DNA from: Atopsyche davidsoni
Taxonomy: Eukaryota; Arthropoda; Insecta; Trichoptera; Hydrobiosidae
Assembly (NCBI GenBank): GCA_022113835.1
Contig: JAILWY010000016.1
Location: forward strand, 4,378,501-4,442,500
Length of the DNA: 64,000 nt
Direction: 5' to 3'
The notes under the pieces are model-generated. The model was not told the DNA's origin and searched no databases. It saw only the letters and a list, made by a program, of their open reading frames with translations. How positions within the stretch are numbered: position 1 is the first letter of the stretch; each line of letters begins with the position of its first letter. The position numbers were made by a program, and so were the translations under genes. Shown in pieces: positions 1 to 47,240 of this stretch.

Positions 1-1765
1 CACTTTCATTGGTGAGGCATTGAAAAGTTCTATCTTTTTTTTTAATGTATCTTTATCGATATATTCTACTGAATGTATTGAGCATTGGTTCCTTTGTTTG
101 TCCACAAGCCACCGTTCCAATTCTCAACCTCTTGTAACAATTTTATTCGCAAAACTTGTTATTAGGCAATCTAACGCTAAATTTGATATTAAAATAATTC
201 AATACGCATTTATGAAATTCTGATACCAATATTTTACTCGACACGTACAAGTTACTACTTCAAGTGTCGCACCGAAACATGATTGGGTGTGAACAGAATG
301 CGTCGGAGCACCAGTAATCTATGTGTAGATTGATCTGCAGGATCGGGTTTGCTACAGATACTTGCCGTCTGGGGGCCATCGATAGAAACATAATCTCCAA
401 ACGCATTACGTACACTGTATTGATCGTACTTTACAAAAAAGGTTCTATTCTTCTGTTAGATTATACCCCACTATAAATAAACGGGGGACAAATGAAAAAT
501 TCGCGCCCTGAAAAGAAAATTGCACTGCTGAATGGAAGATATATTTTATATTTAAACAATGATTTTTTTTTTTTTTGAATTCTACCTTAGCGGTTATGGC
601 TGGCGACTAAATTTGAAGGGCTTTGTATTTTAAATTAAAAGGTTTTATTCACAAGTGATTATTAAATCAGAAACCTTGATAAGCATGTGTTTAAATACTC
701 TTAAAAATTACAACAAATATTTTATTTAACAATAGATCTGTGAATACTTGGAATCATCAACAAACTCAATGAAATATGCACTTTTTACATATGAAAAATA
801 TGTATGTAAAATTAAGCATCGTAGAAGAAACTAAGCAAATAAGGTCATCAGTATTACTAATCGTCTGTGATCATATAGGATAAAATTGTTGTGGTTTCTA
901 AATAACCCCCAGGGCATAAACTCTTAATGAAAAACATTCGATATAGTCTATTTATCATCATTGGTAAAACTTCTTCAAATAAAAAAACTCTTTAACATTA
1001 CTCAACCATTCTATTTTTAGGCTCTTCAGCTTAACCTCTTTATTTATATATAGGGGGTATTTTTTTTTTTTAACAGAGGGATATTTTCCGAGGAAACTCG
1101 ACAAGCAGTGAATGTCCAAGTGGTATTTATCTTGTTACTGTGCAAAATATATACAATTTACAGGCGCAGTGAATAGCAAACGTAAGAATAAAGTAATAAT
1201 AGTAAGCCGTCGCTTTGTATTATGATATATATTTTGATAACAGGTTTCGCGTCAGGACGCGTACTTTTCGATCAGCCCTCATATATACGCAGGTATTTTA
1301 AATCTGTTAAAAAAAGTAAGTACACTTTGTCGTGCGGCAGGAGAGGAAGTAATCAGATTGATTGTCGCCAATTTGTGGTTAATTTAGGCCGGCTATGATG
1401 AACTGTGAATAGTGTGTAGATTGTTTGCCGAGATTGTGGCTTTTTATGCTCCTTCTCGGCGACCAGCCGGACCGCAGCCGACTCACTCCGCGGACAGAAA
1501 CGCGCCTCGAGATTACTTTGAAATAAACCTGATATCGTTAGTACGATTTTTGATTTCAATATATGTTCTCACCAAAAGTTTTAATAAAAATGTACAATTA
1601 TTTGACTTTTTTTTTTATTTTAAATATGTTATAGCGTAGGTTCGGCCAACTGTTAACCCCGTTTGGGCATAGTGTTATTAATGTTTTAACATAAATATAT
1701 GGCTGTAACATCTTGTAGACTGGTTCATTATATTTTGATCGCACATACTTTTGTATCGTTATTAA
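1..1765. other. AT-rich noncoding DNA
   Basis: No gene is recognisable here. Open frames are short, of low complexity and without known motifs. A small GC-richer island at about 1390-1520 interrupts the AT-rich background and could be regulatory; nothing specific supports that beyond composition. Confidence 0.6.
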
Positions 1766-2308
1766 GGGTCTAGGTCCCATAATCGAGTTTTTTTTGATCA
1801 TTTTCTAGTCCGTTTTGCGAAAAATCGACTGCACCAATCAAAAATATTTAAATGCAAAAAGTTTGATACATCCCTTCTTCCGAACACAATACATTTTTAT
1901 GTCGTATAAATTTACTATTAATATGATAAATATGTGTTTTTCCGTTTGAAGTGTAAGAATTTGGAGATTCGTCCGGTACATTTTCCAAGAATCCTAAACA
2001 TTTAAAAGTCTTTTTTTCAATTGGAATTGAAAGATTAAATATAAACCATGTGCGAATTATAAATTTAAAAATTAAAAAAAAAAAAATCTTTAACAAACTT
2101 TAGTTTTGAAAAGTCGTCATTTTATCCAATTTTTCAACATCTTCAAGATTTTATTTTACTTTAAAAATGGACGTAAATTAAATAATAAAAAATTGGTAAA
2201 TATAATTTATTGTTTTCTCAATACTCTGTAAAAAAATCAACTTTCGACATAGAAAAATAAAGTGACAATTAAATTAATTAAATGGCACGATTTCGCCAAG
2301 TAATGGGC
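1766..2308. repeat. Unclassified interspersed repeat, copy 1
   Basis: This stretch of about 543 bp matches 52824-53346 almost base for base. The match starts at GGGTCTAGGTCCCATAATCG and ends near CGATTTCGCCAAGTAATGG. Both copies have the same orientation. Copy 1 keeps about 17 bp, near 2045-2061, that copy 2 lacks. I see no terminal inverted repeats, no clear target duplication and no transposase or reverse-transcriptase motif, so it may be a non-autonomous or truncated element. The sequence identity is seen directly; calling it a mobile element is inference from two dispersed copies with unrelated flanks. Confidence 0.8.
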
Positions 2309-2559
2309 TAGAAGGCCAGAAGCAACTGCCTTAATAGAATGGAGAAAAGTAACGAAGTTTTGAACACTTCGATGTACTTTTTTGCCGTAAATAATCAACG
2401 ATGAAGTATTTGATTGTGTAAATGAAATAGATAAATACTCAGATACACAAATATATGTGTGTGTGTATATATTGAATATTTTGAAAAAATAACCAAGGCC
2501 TTCGTGTTATGACGATTGAAAATTGTTGATTCGACATTTCCTCTCAGCTAATAGAAAGC

Positions 2560-2835
2560 ATTCCTTCACCCTTCTTCGCTCCCCTGTCCAGCTGTGTGGA
2601 GCCCGCACGTGCCCTTGCCAGCTCCCGTCGTTAGGTCCCTCCCCATCGAGGGACGCTCGCTTACCGCATTGCCGTTGTACCGAGCCGTCCTCCTCCGCTC
2701 CCGGCAGAGGATTACCGCAGGATCGGCAGCGTGCTCGGCGAGGTGAGTCTCCGCGAACCTCTGTGCCCTGAGCCAGGTAGAGTTGCGGAATCCTGCCACG
2801 TACGTATCGGCGAGGCTCGTGGACATTTTTATTTA
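2560..2835. promoter_or_regulatory. GC-rich island with a strong 5' splice-like site
   Basis: A sharply bounded GC-rich block lies in AT-rich DNA and is open on both strands (2523-2771 plus, 2566-2826 minus). On the plus strand GAG|GTGAGTCT at 2742/2743 is close to the consensus 5' splice site. It could therefore be an alternative first exon or a promoter/enhancer. The translated frames match no family I know. I treat it as regulatory or untranslated rather than coding. Confidence 0.35.
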
Positions 2836-5800
2836 CCCCCCAGTCTCGAGTATCAGTAGAAAAGCAATCTTATCGAATCACAGGTGATCAATTTGTAGTT
2901 TTTTTTTTTGAGATTTTACAGCGTACATGCCTAATCAGCCACTAAAAATAAAAACTGATTAACTAGGTTAATTACTATGCATAACTGTGCTATTATGTTT
3001 AATTCAGCATTCAAGGATATGCAGAGAACAGCACTTCGTGTTCATTCTAATTTTATATTTTTTTTGTAATAAAAATTTATTTGGACCATAAAGCTCCATT
3101 TTTCAGAAAAATCAGTTTTCCGTGTAGTTATATCATAAATTTCAAGAATTCAACATCAAAAATATATATTCCGTATTATTCCGTGGTATTATACTTTATC
3201 TTCAATCCACGGGGCATCGAAACTAGTCATTGGATATTATTGCATTTTTAAAATTTCTACTGCATATTACTACATATTATTCACAGCTCCATGCAATGTG
3301 ACATCTTTAGCTAACGCTAACATAACCAAACTCATAAAATTTTACTATGAATAATTATGTATTCTTGCATACATCAATTTTAATTGTCATTTTGTCTCTA
3401 TGCACCCGCTTTGTATGAGGCATCCCCGGCTCCTTTTTTGCTGTCCACACACCGCAGCCTCCCAGTTGGCAGACGTTTCCTGTAATTTCCCCACAGATTC
3501 GGCTAATCGCCGCCCTCCCTGCGCACCCCGCAGCCCTGCCGGCGGACCTACATAAAACATCGTGCCGCGGGGCGGGCTCCCTCATCCAATATAACAAACT
3601 GTTTACCTTCCACTCACATCCGCAGGAAGCCTGAAACAATCTCAATTCAAAATTAAAACCTGCCAACATTTTTCTATTTCCTCGCTCGGTGGACATTTCC
3701 GGCGCTAAGTGCCTCGTATAGAGCGCTGGGTATTTTTCTTTTCTTCGAAATACTGAGTTTTTAAGGTTCCGCTGCTTGATATGGCATAAAATTTTATTAC
3801 TGAAATTTAATTTTTCAGAATATATTAAAAATAAAAATTTTACAACCTATGTCTCAGAATACGTAATTCTTAGTCACAGTCTGATTAATAATTATTATCT
3901 TCTACATTATAACTATATTTATATTCGATGTTGATTGAAGGTACCCGAAGGACTAACATAGACCGTATAATACGGTACCCACATCTAAATTCAACCATCC
4001 AATCTGCTAGATTCCTGCCTCTAAAGATTATTATTCTCGTACGGGGATATCGTTTACTCTGTTCCATTATTCTAGTACATCTTTTAACCATTTACGTTAA
4101 TAAATCCGAAAAATTCATTCGCATTTCTTAGTTCTGTAGTTGCTTATTTCGAACGCAAGCAATACCATTTTGTTATCATAATAATAGAAACAAATGGAAT
4201 TGAATTACTCTGCAGCACGTGAAGCAGAAGTATCTAATTCGCGTATTTATTTTGGCTCAGAGCGTACGGGCGATCAAACGGATATGCTTTTTTCCTCACG
4301 AAGAATCACTTTATTTTTTCTCTTGTTCTATACGTGACCGGCATCAATCCATTTCCCAAATAGTCTTGGGCTGGCACAGGCGCACACTCTCTGTATGCTT
4401 AGGTAGCTGTTTGTTCTCACAATTCGCTTATTTAACAAAATTCTTGGAACCTTACCTCGCCAATGAGTATTTTCTTGTTGATGGATATTACTGTTTGTGT
4501 TCTAACTAATTTAATCAATCAGGAATAACCGTGTATCGCGTACATTGTACACCAAAGCAATTTCAAATTATTCCTGGGAAATGTTCCCTGCATGGGCTTT
4601 CAATCTCCATGGAATTATGTACTGAAGATACAAACGGTACGCGCCTAATGGTATTAACTGGTACGACAATGTTGATTTGCTTTGTGTCGCGCTATTCTAT
4701 ATATTAGTAATGTTACATATTATATCCATTACTGGTTTGCGAAAGCCCGGTTGGGAGTAGATTATATAACAGCTAGCACTTAATTTAAAGTATGGCATTG
4801 ATAATCTCGCTACAGGCCTTGCAGACTAACCAGTCAAAACTTTCAATAAAAACCTGAACACGTAAGCGCTCTCGAAGCAAAGTACAAGCGCAGTATCTTC
4901 TTTCTGCCATGCTTTATTTCCTCTGGTGTTAGCCAGGGTTTGTTCGTGTCAGGGGTAGCTATTCAATTGATTGTTCTTCATTTGAATATTCAGCAACCCT
5001 TTCCAGGTCTCAAAGCAATCTATAGACGGTTTTCCACCCAAACTTCATTATTGTCTTGAGGTTTTCACGCCTATTGCTAATAATGGTGTCGGTTTCTTGA
5101 GTTATTTTCGTTCTCCTTCGGCGATCCATCGTTTCAACTACTCAAAGTTTTTTTTTCATGATTTCTTCTTTCAACATTGGTGATTTTTTTGTATTGTGTT
5201 TAAAATATAAAATAGATACTTCTGTAATTCAAATTATTTTATTGATAAACCATTATTATTAACTTTTTCACGATACTTCTAGTGTGTGCCTATATTTTAC
5301 ATTAAATGTTTTTCACTGTCACGTTTGCCGATACTTCTCAGTGCCATGTATTGACATTTGTTGACTTCTAAAGTATACAATTTATTTGTGGACTTTTTCA
5401 TGTTCTCTCTTGTGTTCTTTTTATAGTAAAAATAAATATCACTCATGATAATGTAACAATTTTTTATCCACAAAATTCAAGTTTTACTAAAGAACAAATT
5501 CACTGATTACAATAAAAAAAATGTCCTCTTGAAACTACTGTTTCTACTCACTCTGTTTTAATCTAGTAGGTTATCTATCAACAATATGTTTTTTAATATC
5601 GAAAGCTAACTATTTAATATTAATATTGTGGTCTTTGCCACAAAATAAAATTCTTATAAATGTGTACTTATTTTCATTCAACCATTCAATATACATTTTT
5701 AAATGTAAATTTTGGTTATTTTTTTTATTTTAACACATCAAAAAGTATTGGTACTGTTATTTATCAAATAAAAACTTTAGAATACCAAAATACGTTTATT

Positions 5801-6180
5801 TAATACATATTCACCGCGTACGCTTAAACAGACCTGAACTTCACAAGCAATCAAGCTGGAGTGGCGTGAATGTATATAATTACTCAGGTTATTCCTTCAC
5901 ACCCACACTGTTTTATTCAGTTATCGGAGAGTTCAGCTCCACACTTCTGAAGCCGCTTTTGAGACGTCAACCTGATGACATACCGCCAACAATTACTGGA
6001 ACTTGAGTGCATACCTGCATAAACCTAGCGAAGGCATCTCCCTTGCACCGTCTCACCAAAGTTCACTTTGAGGTCTGAGATCCTTCAAGCCCAGTGTACT
6101 GACGCATTCATATTGCATAAACATGCATATATTGCTACATAAATTCTTGTGAGTGGGAGACATCAAAACTTTGATATTCT
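2836..6180. other. Noncoding DNA with one GC-richer island
   Basis: No gene is seen. A GC-richer island at about 3410-3710 is open on the minus strand (3355-3696), but the frame has no recognisable domain and a skewed Cys/Arg content typical of chance frames in GC-rich DNA. The rest is AT-rich with many homopolymer runs. Confidence 0.55.
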
Positions 6181-6689
6181 AAACGGGAGTCTATTAATCA
6201 CTATTCTGCAAGAGTAGAGGGCGTGAGCCAATAATTATAAGCAATTTGAAAGAATCGCTGCTGTATCAGGTGGGATTTGAACCTGAAGGCAACTTATGAT
6301 TTTTATATTGATACAATTGTTTGCGTTTTATTAATAACGACTTTAAATTAATTAATGAAATTGTTTTTAAACGCAATATTTTTTTAATAAAATCTAGAAT
6401 CTGAAGTGACAATTCCATATTCGAGTGCGGAATGATATAATTTTGAACACTTTGCATAAATCATTGATGCGCTATTTTCTTGCGTAGCCTGCCCACAGAA
6501 TTGAGGTTATCTGATATACACCAAATTTATTAAAACATATTGCAGTTTGAAATTTAGATTTATTTTTTATCTGAAATAATATTATTTATGTATACGTATC
6601 ATGTACACATCGGGCCACGCCTTCAGATATAAATTAAATTCAAGTCAAAGGTTTCCATACAATGTCATAAATCTCAGCGGCGATGGCTA

Positions 6690-7110
6690 TCAGGTCCTCG
6701 GTTCATTATGGCTATTGCGCCTTTGTAGACGGGTCGAGCCTAATTGCAACAGTGCGCCGCGAATCGGCGTCGGGTCTCGCGTGCGCGCAGGCCGGGACTG
6801 CGTAAGCCGCCCCCCCAACCCCATCAACCCCCCAACCCCATCAACCCCCCAACCCCATCAGCCCCCCAACCCCATCAGCCCCCAAACCCCATCAGCCCCC
6901 CAACTCCATCCGCCACACCCCAACCCCGTTCGCCACCCCCCGACCGGCCCGAGGGCTTATTATGGGGGTTTCTCAATCCTACGTCAACAATAAAGAGTTC
7001 CACATGCTTTGAGTTTCATAATCGACGCGTAACCTATTATGGATTTGTGGAAAAATATTTCTTGAGGCCGGCCCCTCGACACGGCGCGTGCGGTAAGTTA
7101 TTGCGATGAA
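6690..7110. promoter_or_regulatory. GC-rich island around a C-rich minisatellite
   Basis: The island begins with a mixed GC-rich segment (about 6690-6810), contains the minisatellite 6811-6912, and ends with GCG|GTAAGTTA at 7092/7093, a good 5' splice-like site. Two overlapping plus-strand frames (6601-6993 and 6744-7109) read the minisatellite as Pro-rich peptide in different frames, which argues that neither is under coding selection. The block could be regulatory or a non-coding first exon. Function is not established. Confidence 0.35.
6811..6912. repeat. 17-bp C-rich minisatellite (about 6 copies)
   Basis: Six tandem copies of a 17-bp unit (CCCCCCAACCCCATCAA with A/G and other point changes) start at 6811, 6828, 6845, 6862, 6879 and 6896. 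Later copies diverge most. The minus strand is a series of G4-G6 runs with short spacers, which fits the usual G-quadruplex pattern. Confidence 0.9.
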
Positions 7111-30450: not shown

Positions 30451-32715
30451 CTGGAACCTTTTGTAAATATAATTGTATCTGTTTGAAAGTAATTTTCTGT
30501 GCTATCTTTAATTATCCGATTAAATTCGTTGATATTACCCAACCGTCCAATACAACATTATCCCTATTTCTCTCAATTAAACCTTTATGCGCAAATCTAC
30601 TCACGTTTTTTTAAAACTGTATAAAGTAGGATGACTTGTATACTTACCGCTTGTTACATCAAATATTAAATGTAATTTGTAGCGAAGTTCTTACATACAA
30701 TATAAATCGTAATATCAAGGAGTACCTCGTATTTGAAGTACTTGTGAAAGTGACTTTTTTGCTCAGAGGCGACAGCAACAAATGTCTGCCAGAGGCGATG
30801 GACTCCTTAATTTTATTGTGCTGGTTGATATATCACACATAATTTATATATTTTAACATTTTTATTTATATTAATAAATTTTAATACAAACGGGGTATTA
30901 GAGCTTTATATAACTTCTGATGAGAACTATCGGAGGTTTCTAACTAACCTTGTTAATTATATACATTTTAAACTTTTGACATAATTACTAACTGTCATAT
31001 CAAATAAACATGATTGATGAAAATAGTTTGCTAACTTGTAGGGTAAGGATTCCAACTTTTATTTCAATCTTTATTTCTTTCTCAGAAATTACTTGATATT
31101 CAGAGAAAAAATAATCTCGAAATTATTTCGGTTTTTCTACGTCTTAGATTTTAATAAAATAATCGATTGTTTGAAACTCAATCATTTTTTTCCTCATTCC
31201 ATCAATATTCACGGAGAACCGAGAGTAACTTTAATGTTAACCTAAAATTGTAAAATCATCAAAAAATATTTAAATGCGTAGGTTAGTTCGTTTACACAAT
31301 TATCTGTAATAATATATACTAGGTGTGTATTTAGTATTACGTATATGTTGATTCATACAACAGCGTGCGTTCGTTTATTTAGTGGTATGATATACAATGT
31401 AGGTAGTATATAATATTTCATACAGATTTACCTCTAACCTTGTGCATGTACGTACTACGGTGCTATTTATCGCAAATCAAAAACAAACCAACTTTTGAAT
31501 AACTCCGCATTAGCATACGTTAGCGAAAGCAGCGGTGCGAAGTCTTATCCCAGCCCATTACTGTAATACAAGTTAATACGTTTAAAATAAAGTTGTGTTA
31601 TGAAACCCTCTGTAACCATACATATTACTTTAAAACAGTTCATGTTAATCATTGAATCGGACAATTTTAAAAACCATATCATCATTGTATGCTTCTAAAA
31701 AGCTTTATTTTAATCAAATTATCTGTCATAAACAATCAAATGTAGAAGGTGATGTTCTTGTCTCAGTGTCATTTTTTAAAAAAAAATTAGAAGATCTCAT
31801 TAATATTTCCCATCTCTGTGCCGTTCACTAACTGTAGACACGAACGTCTTGACGTTGAAAACAACAGTTAAAACATAATGCGACACAAAACTCAAAAACC
31901 ATTTTTTACTAACAGCGGCGTGCGAATCTCCAAATACAAATAATACAATTTTATTTGTATTTTACGAATCGTCGAACAGTGTTCAATCAAATTCATCTAA
32001 ATGTTTGCTAGCGCCGAAAACAATTAATCGAACGAACCAACTCGACAGCAAAACAAACGATCCACCTGCAAAACCCCTATTCAAGGAAACTAAAATACAT
32101 GGCCCTAATTTAATATTGATTTTTATAATGATAGGATCGGTCCAATTTCTATAATTAAAATAGATACTTTAAGCAAAAGAATATCTCAATCATAATAAGA
32201 TGTAATACTGTGTCTCGCTCTCATAATTAGGTAATTTTCTCAGGTGATAAGATGATACGATGCTGTTGTGCAGGATGACCAACTTCAGTGTAAGGAAAGG
32301 TATATCGTTTATTGTGTTACTCGGAGAAAGTTTGAATGGTTGCACTTAACTTAACAGGACTCGCACTTGCCAAGCGACACCCGAAATATAAACCCCTGTG
32401 CTTAAAATTGCAGGGTAAGAGTTCTAATACAGCGTCAAGTACTGGGTGAAGAGGCTTAGGTGAAAAACTTGAGAAAGTGGCATGGGCATAATTCAATCCC
32501 ACTGCTTGTTTCAATTTAAGGGTATCAAGCTATATCAAATTGCAACAATCGCTAAATCGCCTCGTCTGTTTCTTAGTAAAATATTTTGATATTTATTACT
32601 ATTACATATATCTTATTGGAACATTAAAAACCGCATAGTATAAAAAATTATTATTTTTAAACATTTTTTCACATATGAACGGATTAGTGTAACCATACAC
32701 TAGACTTAGTTAGTG
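30451..32715. other. AT-rich noncoding DNA
   Basis: No gene is recognised. ATTTTCTCAG|GTGATAAG at about 32242/32243 is a weaker recursive-type junction than the three listed. A small GC-richer patch lies at 32340-32510. Confidence 0.45.
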
Positions 32716-32719
32716 CCAA

Positions 32720-33260
32720 TCAAGCATAGAGACACAATAATCACCGAGGCGCCATGAGTTGATTAATTGTCGGCTGGATGATCCGCCCGTATCGACTATT
32801 TCAGAGCTCGCTCACCCTCTCGCAAGGTGACAGTCGCAACCCCCTGGCAGTTTGCATCTCCGCTTAATTATCGATGAGACGAACCATCGGATAGTGTAAT
32901 GGAACACTCCACGAAAGCAAACCCTTTGATGTCAAACCATTAGACCCGTGCACACAGACCAGACAGACAAAATTTCCATAGCAACATTTTTAACATCAAT
33001 GTCTTCGAATAAATGCTTTCGTTTTTTTTATTTATAGTTTTCCGGTAAGATTGCTCTATAAGTTTGTGGCAATCCAGTAATTAATCGTTAAGAAATTCAT
33101 GGCTTGGTATAAATCTTGTCAAAACTGTTTAAACTTCTCTGCTCAAAAAGGGGCAAAGTTGGATCTCTTATTTTTAGATCAACGAGGCTTAATTGATTAT
33201 AAAAGCTTGTTTAATGCATAGCGGGAGCCCATCGATCAATAATTGATCATCACCAATAGA
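32720..33260. promoter_or_regulatory. Candidate regulatory region with homeodomain-type palindrome
   Basis: A complex block at 32720-32960 contains GTTGATTAATTG near 32759 and CTTAATTATCGATG near 32864. Further on, GATCAAT A ATTGATC (33234-33248) is a 7-bp perfect inverted repeat next to ATCGAT. These are typical of paired homeodomain and Cut/DREF-like words. No coding frame persists. Confidence 0.3.
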
Positions 33261-33581
33261 TAGCTTCATTGGTATCACTTTAACGATTAAGTTATTGGAG
33301 GAAAAATAACTCTGTCAGTTTATTTTATTAAACCGGGTCCAGCTGCGGTGCAATCCTTTTTATACCTGTAAATATGATGTACAAAAAGTCTAAACGGTTA
33401 TTAAGTATATAAAAGATCCCAATATAGGTTTGTTGCACACATGTTTTTTTAACAAACGTATCACACATGAAGGGATCTCATCGCTGTGCCCCAAAATATA
33501 ATCGAATTTTTTTGTCATCAATTATTTCTTTTTACATTAATAAACAAATAACCAACCATAGATACATCACTGAGCCTAACC

Positions 33582-33589
33582 GTATAACG
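33582..33589. repeat. Left 8-bp target-site duplication of the composite element
   Basis: GTATAACG directly precedes the CAGGGG terminus at 33590. The identical 8 bp follow the distant right terminus at 37450. Eight base pairs is the hAT duplication length, and the central TA fits the nnnTAnnn preference known for Buster-type hATs. Confidence 0.8.
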
Positions 33590-33944
33590 CAGGGGTCCCC
33601 AACCTTTTTGCACCCGAGAGCACGTTCTAGAATGCCGGTCGGGCGGCGGGCACCATTTATTTTTTCCAGGTATATTTATAGTTGGAAATAGTCAATAATA
33701 CATATAATGCACAAAAAATATTGAATTCCAAAAATATAATTATTATTAATATAAAAATATAATTTTAACGATATAATTATTTTCGCTTTATTTCTCTGTT
33801 TTATTACTAAATATTCATATTTTTCATAACATTTTATTGTAAACTTTAATATATTTTATCGTGGTCGCACAGCGGCGGGCATACGTAAAAAAGGTCGGCG
33901 GGCGCCATGGTGCCCGCGGGCATAGGGTGTGGGGACCACCACTG
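33590..33944 (+). mobile_element. Left non-autonomous hAT element (MITE)
   Basis: This 355-bp element has ends CAGGGGTCCCCAACC and GGGGACCACCACTG. GC-rich subterminal blocks (GGCGGCGGGCACCAT on the left, ATGGTGCCCGCGGGC on the right) are inverted relative to each other, and the centre is AT-rich. A near-perfect 20-bp palindrome lies at 33898-33917. No transposase remains, so mobility would need an enzyme supplied elsewhere. Its left neighbour GTATAACG and right neighbour CCTTAAAG differ, so it does not have its own intact target duplication. Confidence 0.8.
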
Positions 33945-34437
33945 CCTTAAAGGCTTGGTAAAATCTGCTGCGAGATCGAGTATATGTATTATTTAATTTA
34001 AATACGTTTACAAAACAATAAAGAGCGTTATATCATATTGATTCAACGATTAAACTTACTACAATATTATTCGTTTTTTTTATTTATTGGGAAAAAGATC
34101 TGCATTTCCATGTAAGTATGCAAATCAATCTTCAAAATAATAGTACATCAGAACTGGATGTTTTACGATATGATAAAATTCGCAAAAAATTAAGTTTGAA
34201 TGATATTTCATTGATGTTTAACGTAAAACAAACAATCTGTGTTTATACAATAAAGTAAGAAAAAATTATTCAAATTCACTTGAAATTTGGACCCTCAGCT
34301 AGGTGTAAAAAAATGTGCTATTTTTTGTACAGAACGCGTATCTGATAATTGATACTCAAGGCTGTCGATTATCCAATCACTTTTGATAACATTGAATTTG
34401 TAACAAGTTCTTTGTGTACCTTTCACCAGCTCCGATA
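33945..34437. other. Unique AT-rich passenger DNA between left hAT and tRNA array
   Basis: About 490 bp of AT-rich sequence with no recognised gene. Its first 8 bp, CCTTAAAG, also fit nnnTAnnn and are the likely right half of the left hAT copy's original target duplication. The last bases before the first tRNA (ACCAGCTCCGATA) match the array spacer with one change (GATAG against GACAG), so the repeat unit starts a little before the gene. Confidence 0.6.
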
Positions 34438-34509
34438 GCCGTGATCGTCTAGTGGTTAGGACCCCACGTTGTGGCCGTGGTAACCCAGGTTCGACTCCTG
34501 GTCACGGCA
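34438..34509 (+). tRNA. tRNA-His (GTG), array copy 1
   Basis: This 72-nt gene folds as a full cloverleaf. Acceptor GCCGTGA pairs with TCACGGC before the discriminator A. The anticodon stem CCACG/CGTGG holds the loop TTGTGGC with anticodon GTG (His). The T arm is CCAGG TTCGACT CCTGG. Internal promoters are visible: the A box around TAGTGGTTAGGA and the B box GGTTCGACTCC, which matches GGTTCGANNCC. CCA is not encoded, and the G-1 of His tRNA would be added after transcription, as is usual in eukaryotes. The RNA polymerase III terminator is the T-run starting at 34538, an unusually long 28-nt trailer. The T loop has C where the usual insect His tRNA, as I remember it, has A (TTCGACT against TTCGAAT); all eleven copies share this. 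Spacer type A. Confidence 0.95.
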
Positions 34510-34632
34510 GTGCTCATACCACTATCATGGCGGAGGATTTTTTTTTCCAAAATTTCCGCAATTGCTTAAAATTGTCACGAAATCCGCTACATTTATCGAC
34601 AGTTTCGCATGAATATTTCACCAACTCCGACA

Positions 34633-34704
34633 GCCGTGATCGTCTAGTGGTTAGGACCCCACGTTGTGGCCGTGGTAACCCAGGTTCGACTCCTGGTCAC
34701 GGCA
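34633..34704 (+). tRNA. tRNA-His (GTG), array copy 2
   Basis: The body is identical to copy 1. It is followed by a type B spacer (ACCTCTATC, GGAGGG then a run of more than ten T). Confidence 0.95.
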
Positions 34705-34828
34705 GTGCTCATACCTCTATCATGGCGGAGGGTTTTTTTTTTTCAAAATTTCCGCAATTGCTTAAAATTGTCACGGAATCCGCTACATTTATCGACAGTT
34801 TCGCATGAATATTTCACCAACTCCGACA

Positions 34829-34900
34829 GCCGTGATCGTCTAGTGGTTAGGACCCCACGTTGTGGCCGTGGTAACCCAGGTTCGACTCCTGGTCACGGCA
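34829..34900 (+). tRNA. tRNA-His (GTG), array copy 3
   Basis: The body is identical to copy 1. It is followed by a type C spacer, which carries the diagnostic CAAACGTTCC after the T-run. Confidence 0.95.
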
Positions 34901-35024
34901 GTGCTCATACCTCTATCATGGCGGAGGGTTTTTTTTTTTCAAACGTTCCGCAATTGCTTAAAATTGTCACGGAATCCGCTACATTTATCGACAGTTTCGC
35001 ATGAATATTTCACCAACTCCGACA

Positions 35025-35096
35025 GCCGTGATCGTCTAGTGGTTAGGACCCCACGTTGTGGCCGTGGTAACCCAGGTTCGACTCCTGGTCACGGCA
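35025..35096 (+). tRNA. tRNA-His (GTG), array copy 4
   Basis: The body is identical to copy 1. A type A spacer follows, with GCCACGAAATCC where copy 1 has GTCACGAAATCC. It begins the second ABC block. Confidence 0.95.
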
Positions 35097-35220
35097 GTGC
35101 TCATACCACTATCATGGCGGAGGATTTTTTTTTTCCAAAATTTCCGCAATTGCTTAAAATTGCCACGAAATCCGCTACATTTATCGACAGTTTCGCATGA
35201 ATATTTCACCAACTCCGACA

Positions 35221-35292
35221 GCCGTGATCGTCTAGTGGTTAGGACCCCACGTTGTGGCCGTGGTAACCCAGGTTCGACTCCTGGTCACGGCA
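35221..35292 (+). tRNA. tRNA-His (GTG), array copy 5
   Basis: The body is identical to copy 1. A type B spacer follows, matching that of copy 2, three units (588 bp) upstream. Confidence 0.95.
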
Positions 35293-35416
35293 GTGCTCAT
35301 ACCTCTATCATGGCGGAGGGTTTTTTTTTTTCAAAATTTCCGCAATTGCTTAAAATTGTCACGGAATCCGCTACATTTATCGACAGTTTCGCATGAATAT
35401 TTCACCAACTCCGACA

Positions 35417-35488
35417 GCCGTGATCGTCTAGTGGTTAGGACCCCACGTTGTGGCCGTGGTAACCCAGGTTCGACTCCTGGTCACGGCA
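35417..35488 (+). tRNA. tRNA-His (GTG), array copy 6
   Basis: The body is identical to copy 1. A type C spacer follows, the second and last one with CAAACGTTCC. It closes the duplicated ABC block. Confidence 0.95.
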
Positions 35489-35612
35489 GTGCTCATACCT
35501 CTATCATGGCGGAGGGTTTTTTTTTTTCAAACGTTCCGCAATTGCTTAAAATTGTCACGGAATCCGCTACATTTATCGACAGTTTCGCATGAATATTTCA
35601 CCAACTCCGACA

Positions 35613-35684
35613 GCCGTGATCGTCTAGTGGTTAGGACCCCACGTTGTGGCCGTGGTAACCCAGGTTCGACTCCTGGTCACGGCA
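35613..35684 (+). tRNA. tRNA-His (GTG), array copy 7
   Basis: The body is identical to copy 1. A type A spacer follows; the unit is 195 bp because its T-run is one base shorter. Confidence 0.95.
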
Positions 35685-35807
35685 GTGCTCATACCACTAT
35701 CATGGCGGAGGATTTTTTTTTCCAAAATTTCCGCAATTGCTTAAAATTGCCACGAAATCCGCTACATTTATCGACAGTTTCGCATGAATATTTCACCAAC
35801 TCCGACA

Positions 35808-35879
35808 GCCGTGATCGTCTAGTGGTTAGGACCCCACGTTGTGGCCGTGGTAACCCAGGTTCGACTCCTGGTCACGGCA
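35808..35879 (+). tRNA. tRNA-His (GTG), array copy 8
   Basis: The body is identical to copy 1. A second consecutive type A spacer follows, apparently the same as that of copy 7, so this is a recent single-unit duplication. Confidence 0.95.
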
Positions 35880-36002
35880 GTGCTCATACCACTATCATGG
35901 CGGAGGATTTTTTTTTCCAAAATTTCCGCAATTGCTTAAAATTGCCACGAAATCCGCTACATTTATCGACAGTTTCGCATGAATATTTCACCAACTCCGA
36001 CA

Positions 36003-36074
36003 GCCGTGATCGTCTAGTGGTTAGGACCCCACGTTGTGGCCGTGGTAACCCAGGTTCGACTCCTGGTCACGGCA
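36003..36074 (+). tRNA. tRNA-His (GTG), array copy 9
   Basis: The body is identical to copy 1. A type B spacer follows that ends ACCAGCTCCGACAG rather than ACCAACTCCGACAG. Confidence 0.95.
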
Positions 36075-36198
36075 GTGCTCATACCTCTATCATGGCGGAG
36101 GGTTTTTTTTTTTCAAAATTTCCGCAATTGCTTAAAATTGTCACGGAATCCGCTACATTTATCGACAGTTTCGCATGAATATTTCACCAGCTCCGACA

Positions 36199-36270
36199 GC
36201 CGTGATCGTCTAGTGGTTAGGACCCCACGTTGTGGCCGTGGTAACCCAGGTTCGACTCCTGGTCACGGCA
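36199..36270 (+). tRNA. tRNA-His (GTG), array copy 10
   Basis: The body is identical to copy 1. A type A spacer follows with a private change (CACGATATCC instead of CACGAAATCC). Confidence 0.95.
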
Positions 36271-36393
36271 GTGCTCATACCACTATCATGGCGGAGGATT
36301 TTTTTTTCCAAAATTTCCGCAATTGCTTAAAATTGCCACGATATCCGCTACATTTATCGACAGTTTCGCATGAATATTTCACCAACTCCGACA

Positions 36394-36465
36394 GCCGTGA
36401 TCGTCTAGTGGTTAGGACCCCACGTTGTGGCCGTGGTAACCCAGGTTCGACTCCTGGTCACGGCA
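36394..36465 (+). tRNA. tRNA-His (GTG), array copy 11 (last intact)
   Basis: The body is identical to copy 1. A type A spacer follows with a shortened T-run (eight T), giving a 194-bp unit. It is the last complete gene before the right hAT element. Confidence 0.95.
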
Positions 36466-36587
36466 GTGCTCATACCACTATCATGGCGGAGGATTTTTTT
36501 TCCAAAATTTCCGCAATTGCTTAAAATTGCCACGAAATCCGCTACATTTATCGACAGTTTCGCATGAATATTTCACCAGCTCCGACA

Positions 36588-36604
36588 GCCGTGATCGTCT
36601 AGTG
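36588..36604 (+). pseudogene. Twelfth tRNA-His, truncated at 17 nt by hAT insertion
   Basis: GCCGTGATCGTCTAGTG matches the first 17 nt of the other copies and is then replaced by the CAGGGG terminus at 36605. The last 8 bp, GTCTAGTG, fit nnnTAnnn and are the likely left half of the target duplication of the right hAT copy. The rest of this gene is not found to the right of the element. Without anticodon, T arm and B box it cannot be functional. Confidence 0.92.
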
Positions 36605-37450
36605 CAGGGGTCCCCAACCTTTTTGTACCCAAGAGCACATTTCAGGATGCCGGTCGGGCGGCGGGCACCATTTATTTTTTCGAAATATGTTTCTGCTCCC
36701 AAAAGTAGGATCAAAGCCGGCTAAAAAAAAAAAATGTATGTTTTTAAGTCGCTACTAAGTTTTTGGTTTTCACACAAAGATGGCGCTAACGACGCTAGAC
36801 AATTCTAAACTTGTGTTGTTTTATAGTTTAGACATCAGTTTTCAATAAGCTACCAACACATTTCGCAACGCAATTTTTTTTTTGTAACAATGAAGATGTC
36901 GAGTTTTATGCCAAAAAAAACAGCATTTGCGGAAAGTTTTGGTTTTCTGCTTTAACTTAAAAAAAATTCAGCTGAAGTTCGTCGTTTTACGTACGGCCTA
37001 TGGAAAACATGCACCATCGAAAACTTCCTGTGAAAATTGGTTTAAACGCTTCAGAAGTGGCGATTTCGACACTAAGGATGCCAATCTGTAAGCGATATTG
37101 GATGAAGATGATACGCAAACACAACATCAACTTGCGGAGGCATTAATAATCAGAAGATAATAAAAAAATTATCAAAAAACTCAAAAATTGACCCATCAAA
37201 GGGATCAGCCACCATAAAATGCTATTTCAACAGACTTTTTTATGATTTTCTGGAAATAATTATTATTTTGAAAATTATAACGATATACTTATTTTTGGTT
37301 ACATTTCTCATTTTAATTGGTACAATTTTTTTTAAATATTTTTTTTATTGTTGTCGGATAGTGGCGATCACACGGAAAATGGTTGGCGGGCGCACGAAAA
37401 ATGATCGGCGGGCGCCATGGCGCCCGCGGGCACAGGGTTGGGGACCACCG
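36605..37450 (+). mobile_element. Right non-autonomous hAT element with nested mariner
   Basis: The left end is almost the same as the left copy over about 80 bp (CAGGGGTCCCCAACCTTTTTG, then GGTCGGGCGGCGGGCACCAT). The right end matches again from about 37270 (ATTATAACGATATACTTATTT against ATTTTAACGATATAATTATTT) to GGTTGGGGACCACCG. The extra 0.5 kb in the middle is a mariner remnant. A perfect 20-bp palindrome is at 37408-37427. It is followed directly by GTATAACG (37451-37458). Confidence 0.8.
36722..37255 (+). pseudogene. Decayed mariner transposase fragment
   Basis: From an ATG near 36890 the sequence encodes the N-terminal part of a mariner-family transposase, broken by frameshifts and a stop. 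One frame gives MSSFMPKKTAFAESF-like residues. After a shift, another gives YGKHAPSKTSCENWFKRF followed by RSGDFDTKD (about 36990-37080), the helix-turn-helix region typical of mariners. LDEDDTQTQHQLAEAL-like residues follow to about 37145. The catalytic DDD region is missing, so the remnant is dead. Boundaries are estimated by comparison with the left hAT copy; exact mariner termini and TA duplications were not resolved. Confidence 0.75.
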
Positions 37451-37458
37451 GTATAACG
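37451..37458. repeat. Right 8-bp target-site duplication of the composite element
   Basis: GTATAACG abuts the right terminus and equals 33582-33589. The base before it differs on the two sides (C at 33581, the element's own final G at 37450), so the duplication is exactly 8 bp. Confidence 0.8.
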
Positions 37459-38379
37459 TATTTGATAGATAATTTTACTAACTTTGTTCACTTTAACGTT
37501 GTTCTTAGAATTATGGTTTTAGTATAGTAATTTTAGATTTGTTTCCCAACATCGGTAAATTAAAATTATTATAAAATTGAACATATTTAAATTTTAATAT
37601 CGATCTATTTTTATATATGTATTATAACTTTGATGAATTCACGATCTGTAGTATCCTGTCGTCGAACCCAAATTTATTCATCGCACAAGCAAAAAGTTTT
37701 AATTTGATTTAGATTGATTAAATTTTGTACTAATTGTGTCGTTGAATTGATTTTTTTGAACATTTAAAAAACTTTATGTTTTCTTCAAAAATATTTTTTT
37801 AAACTTTTAATTTGACTTTTTAAAATATCGTTTGTAATCTTCATTGTATCGTAGCCTCGTGAAGAAAAAATGCTTTTTTTATTAAATCAGCTGCAGTATA
37901 AATACAATAAAAATTTTGTCATTGTAAAAATATTATCTTTGTATTTAAGGGTCGATTATATTTTAATTGTTAGCTTTTAAAATAAAAACCAAAATAAGTA
38001 ATGAATTGAGGTCACGAACAGGACGGGTCGTTTAAGTAATTTTAACTATTGCTCTGTGCATCCTTCGCTTCCGAGAAGCTAAGTAAATCCCACGGCAAAA
38101 CTAAAATTTTTAGCGTTTAAGTTTAATATGACGATTTAAATCATAAAAACAACACATCACCAGTGATAAAATGACATACTATTTATTCAACCTTGCTCAA
38201 ACATTGTCAAATTATAGTTATTCTCTAAAATCTAAAGCACGACAAAAAATATAAGAGACTATCTTTGAAATCCATATTTTAATTTCCGGTGCGTTAAACT
38301 GGAGCTATCATACTCTCACAGATCTTCCAATTATTCCTTCAGTGTGAAGAAGGAAAAAGAAGGAGGGCTCCAATCATTA
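37459..38379. other. AT-rich noncoding DNA
   Basis: No gene, repeat or clear motif cluster is seen. Confidence 0.5.
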
Positions 38380-38700
38380 CAAAATCCCTTATTTGATATG
38401 ACAAGCCGAGGGATGATGGGTGGACGCAGTGGGTGGAGTATCGCCAGAACGAGGCGCCATCACGTGAGGCGCCCATTATCGGGTCATATCAGGCCGCAAT
38501 TACGCCTCCAATATCGCGCCTCAGTTCCCTCTACTTGTTTATCTCCGTCAGCCGCCGGAGCGCGCCTCAGACTAGTGTGTGTAATAAATGTCAGTATTAA
38601 AACTGAATTAATAGTGTCGCCCAGCCCGCGCCATCCCGACAGCCCCGCCACATTACCGACACTTGCATACTCCAATTCATTATTATTTACCGTGATATCC
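38380..38700. promoter_or_regulatory. Candidate cis-regulatory module with E-box palindrome
   Basis: GGCGCC, ATCACGTGA, GGCGCC at 38453-38473 is an inverted arrangement around the E-box CACGTG. CCCATTATCGGGTCATATCAGGCCGCAATTACG follows in short homeodomain-like words. Long frames on both strands (38344-38796 and 38484-38777) share this GC-rich block but show no domain. Confidence 0.35.
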
Positions 38701-40825
38701 GTGCGCATTAACACAAAAAAAAAACTGGGAAAACTCACAGAAAATGAAAGGCTGAAACTCTCAGACATATGGTTCAAGTGCCCGAGATATTACTAATAAA
38801 AGAAAATTGGAGTTCCCCAGACGAACTACGAGAGAAAATAAATATGAACTTCTGTAGCTTGATATTCAAAGAAAAAATGTTGACTAGACGTAAGACGCTT
38901 TAGCAGAGAAGAATAGAGTTTCTTAAAGTACTAAAAATGTGATCAATGTTCAATATTTATTAAAATTAGAAGAGACTGTTTTTATGTGATTAGAAAAATT
39001 ACATTTGAAACCAATGTAATGAAAAACTTAAGTTATGGCTTCTAATTACAGCGTAAGACCGCTTTTTCGGTTTATCGTGTCATATTTACAACACCAATGA
39101 TTGCGTTTCGGATAAAGCTCTCCATGTTTTTTCAATCATCTACTACGCATTTTACTACATATATTATTGCTTTATAAAACAAAATGTACATCATCCAAAG
39201 CTTTGTTTTCTTTGGAAAATGAGGGTGATTAATAATTTTTAAAGCATTTAAATATTATTTTTATTTAACAATCCAGCCGTGATTTTGTATGTAACCATGC
39301 TTACTAACCACTTGACCACGAAACGGTATTATAGAAGTTCACGTCGAGTGGTTCGTTTTTAGTAGAGTAATGTTGATCGCGTGTTCCACAGCCACCCTTG
39401 TCTTCTGTCCCCACCCTTTCGTATTGATGTTTACAGAGGCATTTTCAGCCTCGGTTGACTGAAGCTTTGAAAGTTGTACCTCCACCGCTTACATTCTTGC
39501 GGCGACTTGCCTTGAGCTTGCTCCGACTATGAAATATCTTACACTGTCATGATAATAATTTACCATCCGATCTCGCTCTGTCAAAATCCCAAATTTTGCG
39601 TCCGCAACAGCACGACTTAATTAATAAAACGCGTTCAACGGGAATAGTAACTGTACAAGTACTCATCATCACGATAAAACGCTAGATCCATGATCTCTAA
39701 ATACAGGAACTATTTAATACAAATTTATTTTGAAACTTAATCAATCTTGTATATCATGAAAAATGGGATCGCGTATCATGATAATGCAGTAAATTGTGGT
39801 GCTTATTTTACAAAATATAATTTGTTTTGCATGTAAATGTGTAATAACGTATTGAGAAGTTAGACTTTTAAGCCAGATGTAATATTTTATTTAAGTAAAC
39901 GAATCTATACGTATTCCGGTCTCGCAGAGCGCATCGCAGCTGGTTCAGCTATTCCGTTTCATTCTCCTGTTAATAGGATTTGCAGTAATTGGCTCAGTCC
40001 CAGCCGTCCTGATGCAGCGAATGCCTCTTGAATGGAAGACCACAGATCGTTTCTACTCGCAGACACTAATCCAATTGTAGATATACAGAAAGAACTCTGA
40101 AAACTCGTTCTTCAATTACTTAATTCCTCAACATTACGTGTTTATACAAACACGGAGCTTATTGAAATATACTTTTATTTTATTTAACTGCCACTTTTTT
40201 TTCGTTGTAAAAAAAATATGGAAGCCATGGAAGTGTTCGCCATGGAAGTATTCGCAGATATCAAATTATTATTTCTCGTCCAAAGTATTATAAATTATTC
40301 AAAATTAAACTTTACCAAAAAAAAACTGTGCAGCTTTTTCTTTGCTCTATATCTATAAATATTAAATCAAATATTGTTTCAAAATTATACACTTTAATAA
40401 CTTGAGGGCTTTACAGAGTCAAGCGGTTCTGTATTAAAAAGATCTACTTTAGTTCCTGTAAGCTTAAAACACTTTTTTTACTCAAAAATTAACACGAGGC
40501 AAAATTAAATTTCGGGGAGCAACCATCCCATGCTGAAAAGAATAATATTTCAATGTTATAACTTCAACTAGTTTATCTACTGTCTTTGTTAGCATCGACT
40601 CTGACAGAAAACAATATTTCAGAACTTTTAATTTATTTATTGAAACTTTTTAGCCCCAAGCTATTTTAATGTTTTATAAAGATATAAACGTGCTGAGATT
40701 AAAATGACTGAATTTGAATACTATTTGTAAAACACTCGATGAAGCCAACATGTTTTTCAATTATAACTTATCTAATATAAATGTAATTTTATTTTAACGA
40801 ATACATTACTTTTTTCTGTGCAAAA
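38701..40825. other. AT-rich noncoding DNA
   Basis: No gene is seen. A small tandem duplication of 15 bp (CATGGAAGTGTTCGC then CATGGAAGTATTCGC) lies at 40226-40255. GC-richer patches at 39380-39530 and 39910-40060 have no motif I can name. Confidence 0.45.
39270..39326 (-). repeat. Decayed tRNA-derived SINE fragment
   Basis: On the minus strand, CGTGGTCAAGTGGTTAGTAAG resembles a tRNA/SINE A-box region. The expected B-box position (near ACATACAAAATCACGG) is badly decayed. The assignment is tentative. Confidence 0.4.
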
Positions 40826-46416: not shown

Positions 46417-46785
46417 TTAATGTATATTTACATCTTTACGAAGATAGGTTCGTAAACATAAGTCTTTGTAATTTTGCTTTGTATGATATTTCATGTAACA
46501 ATTGCCGAGATGCATGCCCGGCTTTTCGGGACAAGTATCACAAAAGTATGTCGTTTGATGTCTTTTGCCGGGTTTATTTTTTTGAGAACAGACTTTGTAA
46601 TCCTTCCTAACTCCTGTTATAATGTTATGCAGCCTTCCACTTAGGCGGATTTTCGGAATCGCAGGTTGAAGTGAAGCTCTAGCACGTGTCTGACGAAAAT
46701 CTCCAGTCAATTGCCGAACTAAGGTTTTCATATACCGCAAGTGATTAAGCGGCTGTTCTCCTCTCAGCTGTTTAGTGAGATACAC
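46417..46785 (-). pseudogene. piggyBac-like transposase, C-terminal remnant
   Basis: The 122-codon frame ends with the Cys-rich domain typical of piggyBac transposases: KVCSQ, then about 12 residues later YFCDTCPEKPG, then NCYMKYHTK, a Cys/His zinc-binding pattern that binds the transposon ends in the family. The upstream part (RYMKTLVRQLTGDF) fits the region just before that domain. Full-length family members are around 600 residues, so about four fifths are lost and the first Met is not a true start. No catalytic Asp residues remain. Whether the frame is transcribed is unknown. Confidence 0.85.
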
Positions 46786-47240
46786 ATTATCATAATATTA
46801 TTATATATTATAAAGCAAACAAAATAATGGTACGATAAGTGAATGGAAAGGTTATTGATATTGTGAGGGAGAAAAAAGTCTATTCTTCAGTGCAATATAA
46901 GTTTAAGCAAATAAGGACCCTCAAATGAATGATTACGATAAGAAGTACAAGCAAAAAATATATGGGTTGATTAGGTAGGTACACATCTAGTCATTTTGCC
47001 ATGGCTGTCAAGGTCGAACTGAGACCAAAAATGCAGTTCGCTTTATGGTGCCGCACTAATCTTGGATAAGAAATTCTAGCGTAGTTTGAAAGGGGGATAA
47101 CATGATCTTTGTAAAATTATATGGGCAGTGCTTAGTAACGAACTTTAAAGAACAAGATCACATAAACATAAACAAGAAATCACCAGATAAAAAACCATAA
47201 ATAGTTATCACCGCACATCGAATTTCCGCACCAAGCAAAT

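Follow-up and report, generated by a model that had tools for sequence, protein, structure and literature searches.

Linked hAT elements in maize can move together with the DNA between them: in the Ac/Ds macrotransposons the ends of two linked elements act jointly, and the resulting units excise and gain copies (PMC9910405), and a Ds/Ac pair is reported to have moved as much as 100 kb (PMC3260210). Here we describe a composite hAT unit with an array of tRNA-His genes as its cargo, found in a 64-kb stretch of Atopsyche davidsoni DNA (C16:4378501-4442500, hereafter the window, within a genome of 370.7 Mb in 80 contigs). The unit occupies 33590-37450 of the window and stands at a second site in the genome; it has very probably moved as a macrotransposon by means of its paired outer ends, carrying the array with it. 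Families of tRNA genes are known to shift in position and in number, which is commonly attributed to duplication and unequal exchange. The latter has been argued for the expansion of a tRNA array in Phytophthora infestans (PMC9584435).

On our reading the composite resembles maize Ac/Ds in that the ends of two linked hATs would cooperate, the host DNA between them would move and copy number can rise; excision in maize leaves a modified 8-bp target-site duplication (TSD) (PMC9910405). The cargo is different: for maize, PMC9910405 describes p1 enhancer DNA and PMC3260210 mostly nested retrotransposons, with no gene array in the pertinent parts of those reports. The maize examples belong to the plant Ac system in maize lines, whereas the composite belongs to a Buster-like system in an animal, occupies two genome sites and carries tRNA genes. 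Another structural parallel is the maize compound Ds-l4-483, as outlined in PMC3260210, where two Ds-l4 copies trap a foreign transcribed sequence and a TSD copy lies at the outer end. In that compound, however, the left copy itself has a flanking TSD and an additional TSD copy lies at the far end; it is known from one locus and its cargo is a retrotransposon fragment plus transcribed sequence (PMC3260210). Mar and other animal Buster-type hATs share with the composite an 8-bp TSD (consensus nnnTAnnn), derivatives of the miniature inverted-repeat transposable element type and a GTF2IRD2-like transposase, but are presented as single elements without host cargo (PMC3517528). Dada transposons are also DNA transposons tied to tRNA genes; in their case tRNA and snRNA genes are the insertion targets, and the relevant parts of the two papers do not mention an array as cargo (PMC3706591, PMC8869645). 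In the composite, one of the two hAT insertions happens to fall in a tRNA gene.

Among the literature matches listed, judged by titles and abstract openings, there was no hAT composite with a tRNA array as cargo; most subscription literature lies outside this scope and the result is weak evidence of absence. A preliminary description of the window, made from its letters alone, had called such a composite undescribed. This is too broad for composites as such, a class of mechanism known from maize Ac/Ds, but the tRNA-array cargo and the animal setting do look new. A complete multi-gene tRNA array with signatures of transposition at two unrelated sites, and with the first step represented at a third locus, provides a concrete and testable account of how families of tRNA genes might spread as a mobile cassette. 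It also suggests that the joint use of linked hAT ends, known in maize, has left its products in an animal as well, the cargo there being an intact array of genes.

Structure of the composite and its copy on C9

Table 1. Parts of the composite in the window (positions in the 64-kb stretch)
Feature	Position	Strand	Evidence
Outer left TSD, GTATAACG	33582-33589	.	Same letters as 37451-37458
Left hAT, non-autonomous, 355 bp; starts CAGGGGTCCCC, ends GACCACCACTG	33590-33944	+	C9 copy 98%; family ends and 8-bp TSDs in relatives
Inner-left octamer CCTTAAAG, the left hAT's original TSD	33945-33952	.	C9 has CCCTAAAG here; the C4 single hAT has it on either side
Spacer, native 5' flank of the tRNA-His array	33945-34437	+	Present at 5 genome places
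Eleven identical tRNA-His(GTG) genes, 195/196-bp tandem repeat	34438-36465	+	ARAGORN, Rfam, identical 72-mers, TRF
Stump of a twelfth tRNA-His gene, interrupted by the right hAT after 17 bases	36588-36604	+	Sequence; exact junction only at C9 and C16
Inner-right octamer GTCTAGTG, last 8 bases of the stump	36597-36604	.	Sequence
Right hAT, non-autonomous, 846 bp, with internal mariner (Mos1-type) fragment; ends GACCACCG	36605-37450	+	C9 copy 96%; CCG-ended relatives with TSDs; HTH_48
Outer right TSD, GTATAACG	37451-37458	.	Same letters as 33582-33589

The two hAT elements lie in direct orientation with the tRNA-His array between them (Table 1). The array starts approximately 0.5 kb past the left hAT, and the right hAT adjoins the 17-base tRNA-His stump directly. 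The elements are related to one another, with identities of 88.6% in the first 88 bp and of 88.1% in 67 bp at the opposite end. They bracket host DNA, their outer ends have a common TSD and their inner flanks are unlike: the outer octamers are identical, whereas the inner octamers (CCTTAAAG on the left, GTCTAGTG on the right) differ. GTATAACG occurs four times on the + strand of the window, two of these being the borders of the composite, and its reverse complement is absent from the window. At 35% GC the chance that two fixed octamers match is about 3e-5, and for the window locus and the C9 locus jointly about 9e-10. The preliminary description had reported two short hAT copies of the same orientation around eleven tRNA-His genes, with a perfect octamer at the outermost ends and inner flanks that do not match. 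Orientation, bracketing and octamers are as it described, and ARAGORN and Rfam agree on the eleven genes, to which the stump of a twelfth can be added. The term short hAT is too plain for the right element, in which the mariner fragment is recognized by Pfam HTH_48 (E 4e-12).

Whether searched with the left hAT, the spacer, one unit of the tRNA repeat or the right hAT, the genome yielded a second composite at C9:5920531-5923194(-). A hAT is followed there by the spacer (94% identical to that of the window), five tRNA-His genes, a stump of the same 17 bases and a further hAT. In the left hAT and spacer 807 of 830 ungapped positions are identical (gaps in 3 runs); for the right hAT, taken together with 34 bp of the array, the figure is 852 of 867 (98.3%, gaps in 6 runs). 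The outermost 150 alignment columns are 98.0% identical on the left and 97.2% on the right. Outside the composite this similarity is lost. The 300-bp flanks of the two loci are unrelated (44-47% in a forced global alignment), and in a local comparison of window positions 31001-40500 with the C9 stretch the homology ends within one base of the composite borders. The C9 composite is bordered at either end by a perfect duplication, CTCTAGTG, which is unlike GTATAACG. Its inner junctions are CCCTAAAG on the left, one base different from CCTTAAAG in the window, and GTCTAGTG on the right. Genome-wide, C16 and C9 are the only places where array and right hAT meet in exactly this junction; four further places have it with 2 mismatches. 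The composite therefore occupies more than one unrelated site. This second copy, with its own duplication and unrelated flanks, and the single left-type hAT on C4 described below support the earlier proposal that the outer ends transposed jointly as one unit; a copy of the array bounded by hATs elsewhere in the genome, which the preliminary description had advised seeking, is what the C9 locus represents. Of the contrary results that it had named, none was encountered within this genome. The C9 outer left terminus (C9:5923194) reads CAGGAGTCC, while that of the window and most relatives is CAGGGGTCC.

The C4 locus and the proposed origin of the composite

On C4 a hAT of the left family stands as a lone insertion between two copies of CCCTAAAG, and after it come the spacer and one intact tRNA-His gene; this hAT lacks an internal stretch. 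Because CCCTAAAG flanks the single C4 element and also forms the inner-left octamer at C9, the left hAT appears to have arrived as a single element beside a tRNA-His gene, its outer left end later being separated from that context. C4 is most readily taken as a relative of the donor locus. The spacer is present at C16, C9 and C4 (79%), and in part at C21 (72%) and C12 (80%). With C4 as outgroup, and over 635 positions aligned in all three, there are 8 private changes in C16 and 10 in C9 (1 ambiguous), and the two differ from C4 at 61 and 63 positions, respectively; from these counts the two composites would have changed about equally since parting.

We propose the following series of steps. 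A short hAT would have inserted at CCCTAAAG, approximately 0.5 kb upstream of a tRNA-His gene, a stage exemplified by C4. Next, an array gene would have been interrupted in its 5' part, at GTCTAGTG, by a mariner-containing hAT of the same orientation; the junction is seen in both composites, and we infer the stage of a single insertion. A hAT transposase would then have paired the left element's outer end with that of the right element and pasted the whole block at new sites. The products to be expected of such a reaction, the GTATAACG and CTCTAGTG duplications, are observed; the reaction itself is deduced from them. Array copy number would finally have shifted by unequal exchange (11 versus 5 genes, with unlike patterns of repeat units).

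The outer ends bear most directly on this proposal. At distances of 27 and 35 bp from the left outer end, C16 and C9 share states that are private to them; all 18 other left copies differ there. This comparison covered 20 copies: C16, C9, C4, two left-family copies of one further region (L050) and 15 relatives, these being 15 of the 16 copies that ranked next after both composites among the 40 matches listed (one partial copy was left out). As the shared states sit so near to the terminus, the outer left end itself appears to have been inherited with the block. On the right, the last 100 columns of the outer end are 98.0% identical between C16 and C9, while three relatives of the right hAT reach at most 93.1% to either. 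These ends speak against a different route to the same arrangement, in which recombination between the two hATs of a donor frees a circle of array plus one hAT, and the circle recombines into resident single hATs at GTATAACG and CTCTAGTG. Neither the order of parts nor the outer duplications would differ under such a route, and it would draw on an abundant family (1926 first-look candidates for the left hAT in the genome) whose outer-left 150 bp are so conserved that overall identity there is not decisive. It would, however, require two separate integrations into residents, with crossovers within the last 27 bp on the left, and it leaves the close agreement of the right outer ends to be accounted for. 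The private states make two independent integrations into resident hATs improbable, and we regard the circle as an unlikely origin.

Several observations nevertheless weigh against joint transposition. The right-side private states are less telling: the nearest stand at distances of 92 and 155 bp from the end, and the comparators number 3 and 4. Over the outer-left 150 bp C16 and C9 are 98.0% identical, but the best other copy reaches 96.6% to C16 and 97.3% to C9, and when the other 16 copies are compared pairwise, identities rise to 98.6% (median 92.8%); on the left, then, only the two private states would argue against resident ends, and overall identity does not decide. An empty site was not seen: the joined flanks (300 bp on each side with one octamer) matched only their own halves in a search of the same genome that skipped very common words. 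Nor was there a single right-hAT insertion with GTCTAGTG on both sides; a pattern search allowing up to 3 mismatches gave C19 and C20, with 3 mismatches each. Recombination steps may still have made some contribution.

Two further explanations do without transposition of the block. It could have been spread by segmental duplication or interlocus copying with coincidental octamer matches, and unequal exchange can indeed expand tRNA arrays, as argued for P. infestans (PMC9584435); but the homology ends at the hAT termini, the flanks are unrelated and perfect octamers at both sites would arise by chance at only the joint probability given above (~9e-10), which makes this origin very improbable. 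Equally, an array bounded by repeats is a place where an assembly can join array and hAT copies wrongly, but here such an error must have happened twice, at loci whose flanks are independent, each time with proper duplications and with inner junctions that agree, and we give it hardly any weight. Joint transposition of the outer ends thus remains our preferred reading. In its widest form the proposal would be that the tRNA-His array is itself a mobile, self-bounded hAT macrotransposon which copies a whole working array to new chromosomes, that it is the source of 16 of the 29 canonical genes counted, and that it exemplifies a general mechanism for the wandering of tRNA clusters in animal genomes. 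We offer this extension tentatively and put it at somewhat below an even chance.

Cargo, element families and a candidate transposase

Each of the eleven window tRNA-His genes scores 60.3 bits with Rfam RF00005, and all 16 complete genes of the composites (11 on C16, 5 on C9) are identical 72-mers. Another 13 identical complete copies bring the canonical tRNA-His genes in the fetched loci to 29, a lower bound for which 40 of 44 candidate regions were scored and in which several variant C5 copies (89-92%) are not counted. From their intact fold, anticodon and sequence the composite genes are predicted to be functional. Of 124 columns in the array spacers, 12 vary by substitution and 2 by indels alone, against none of the 72 columns of the tRNA (p = 0.004, Fisher test), which may be taken as a pointer to constraint and not as proof, the columns of an array evolving by exchange not being independent. 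Some spacers within an array are identical (2=5, 3=6 and 7=8 in the window; 1=5 and 2=4 at C9). The repeat patterns of C16 and C9 differ, and the structure of the array has therefore changed after their parting.

Other tRNA-His clusters occur in the genome. L012 (C12:963000-972900) has fourteen genes at 4385-7004 in a 196-bp tandem array whose repeat unit is shared with the composite (~86%); the array has no match to the hAT copies, and all fourteen genes have one difference from the canonical gene. L023 (C2:2584000-2593900) has twenty-one genes at 1000-5269, spaced by ~180 bp with two steps of 484 bp, nineteen of them with four differences and two with five. L024 (minus strand) and L025 (plus strand), at C5:1.60-1.64 Mb, form a loose variant cluster with irregular spacing of ~0.5-3 kb.

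In the 15 left-family relatives the 8-bp duplications are perfect in 10, have one mismatch in 2 (one of these with shifted ends) and are lacking within the limits of the script in 3. All 10 perfect duplications, and the composite octamers, have TA at positions 4-5, as in the Buster consensus. The terminal inverted repeats are short and imperfect (CAG...), the left being CAGGGGTCCCCAACC and the right GGTTGGGGACCACTG or CCG. By the 8-bp TSD, the CAG... terminal inverted repeats and the transposase of an element with like ends, the composite elements belong to the hAT superfamily. Five further regions were fetched: in L051, L052 and L053, relatives of the right hAT, the ends are resolved and the duplications match at 8/8, 7/8 and 8/8 positions, L052 and L053 having the same CCG right end as the composite; the ends of L054 are unresolved. 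The right hAT belongs to a repeated subfamily of mariner-containing hATs, which has spread as such with the mariner fragment near its left end. The fifth region, L050, holds a pair of hATs on C24 and was ruled out as a further composite; a duplication of CTATAGAG belongs to one of the elements by itself, and the outer ends are unpaired.

The hAT dimerisation domain has at least 76 matches in the genome. One of them lies in a 4206-bp hAT at C1:4125884-4130089 (L063/L061) with an open frame of 618 codons (608 from the first methionine). The element has TACTAAGG on both sides as a perfect duplication, and its ends are CAGGGGTCCCCAACC on the reverse strand at one and CGGTGGTGCCC at the other. It is 81% identical to positions 1-170 of the right hAT, a similarity that reaches beyond the 88 bp common to left and right elements, and it is a plausible candidate for the source of the enzyme that moved the composite. 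The predicted protein matches PF05699 (8.1e-6; 26.0 bits against a cut-off of 21.4) and two other Pfam families below their cut-offs; a search of solved structures gave no match at E 0.01. It has 877 relatives at E 0.001, of which the named ones among the 120 matches listed are mostly GTF2IRD2-like or ZBED5-like animal proteins. The Buster-like grouping would rest on this similarity and on the TSD consensus. The matches listed also include a scorpion protein (82% identity, with 69% of the query covered) and, at 55-60%, proteins from reptiles. The patchy spread of these relatives could mean horizontal transfer. As transposase sources, L059 and L060, which have the dimerisation domain, were dropped as decayed or nested, and L062, a 623-codon frame on C5, has no family ends in the stretch taken.

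Other features of the window

Of 24 open frames listed in the window, 10 were scanned, and 9 of these have no Pfam family at E 0.01. A 126-residue frame at 46417-46797 (-) has a sub-threshold match to a transposase-type zinc finger (PF13842, E 4.4e-4). A tandem repeat of a 17-bp unit, in 6.1 copies, lies at 6811-6914.

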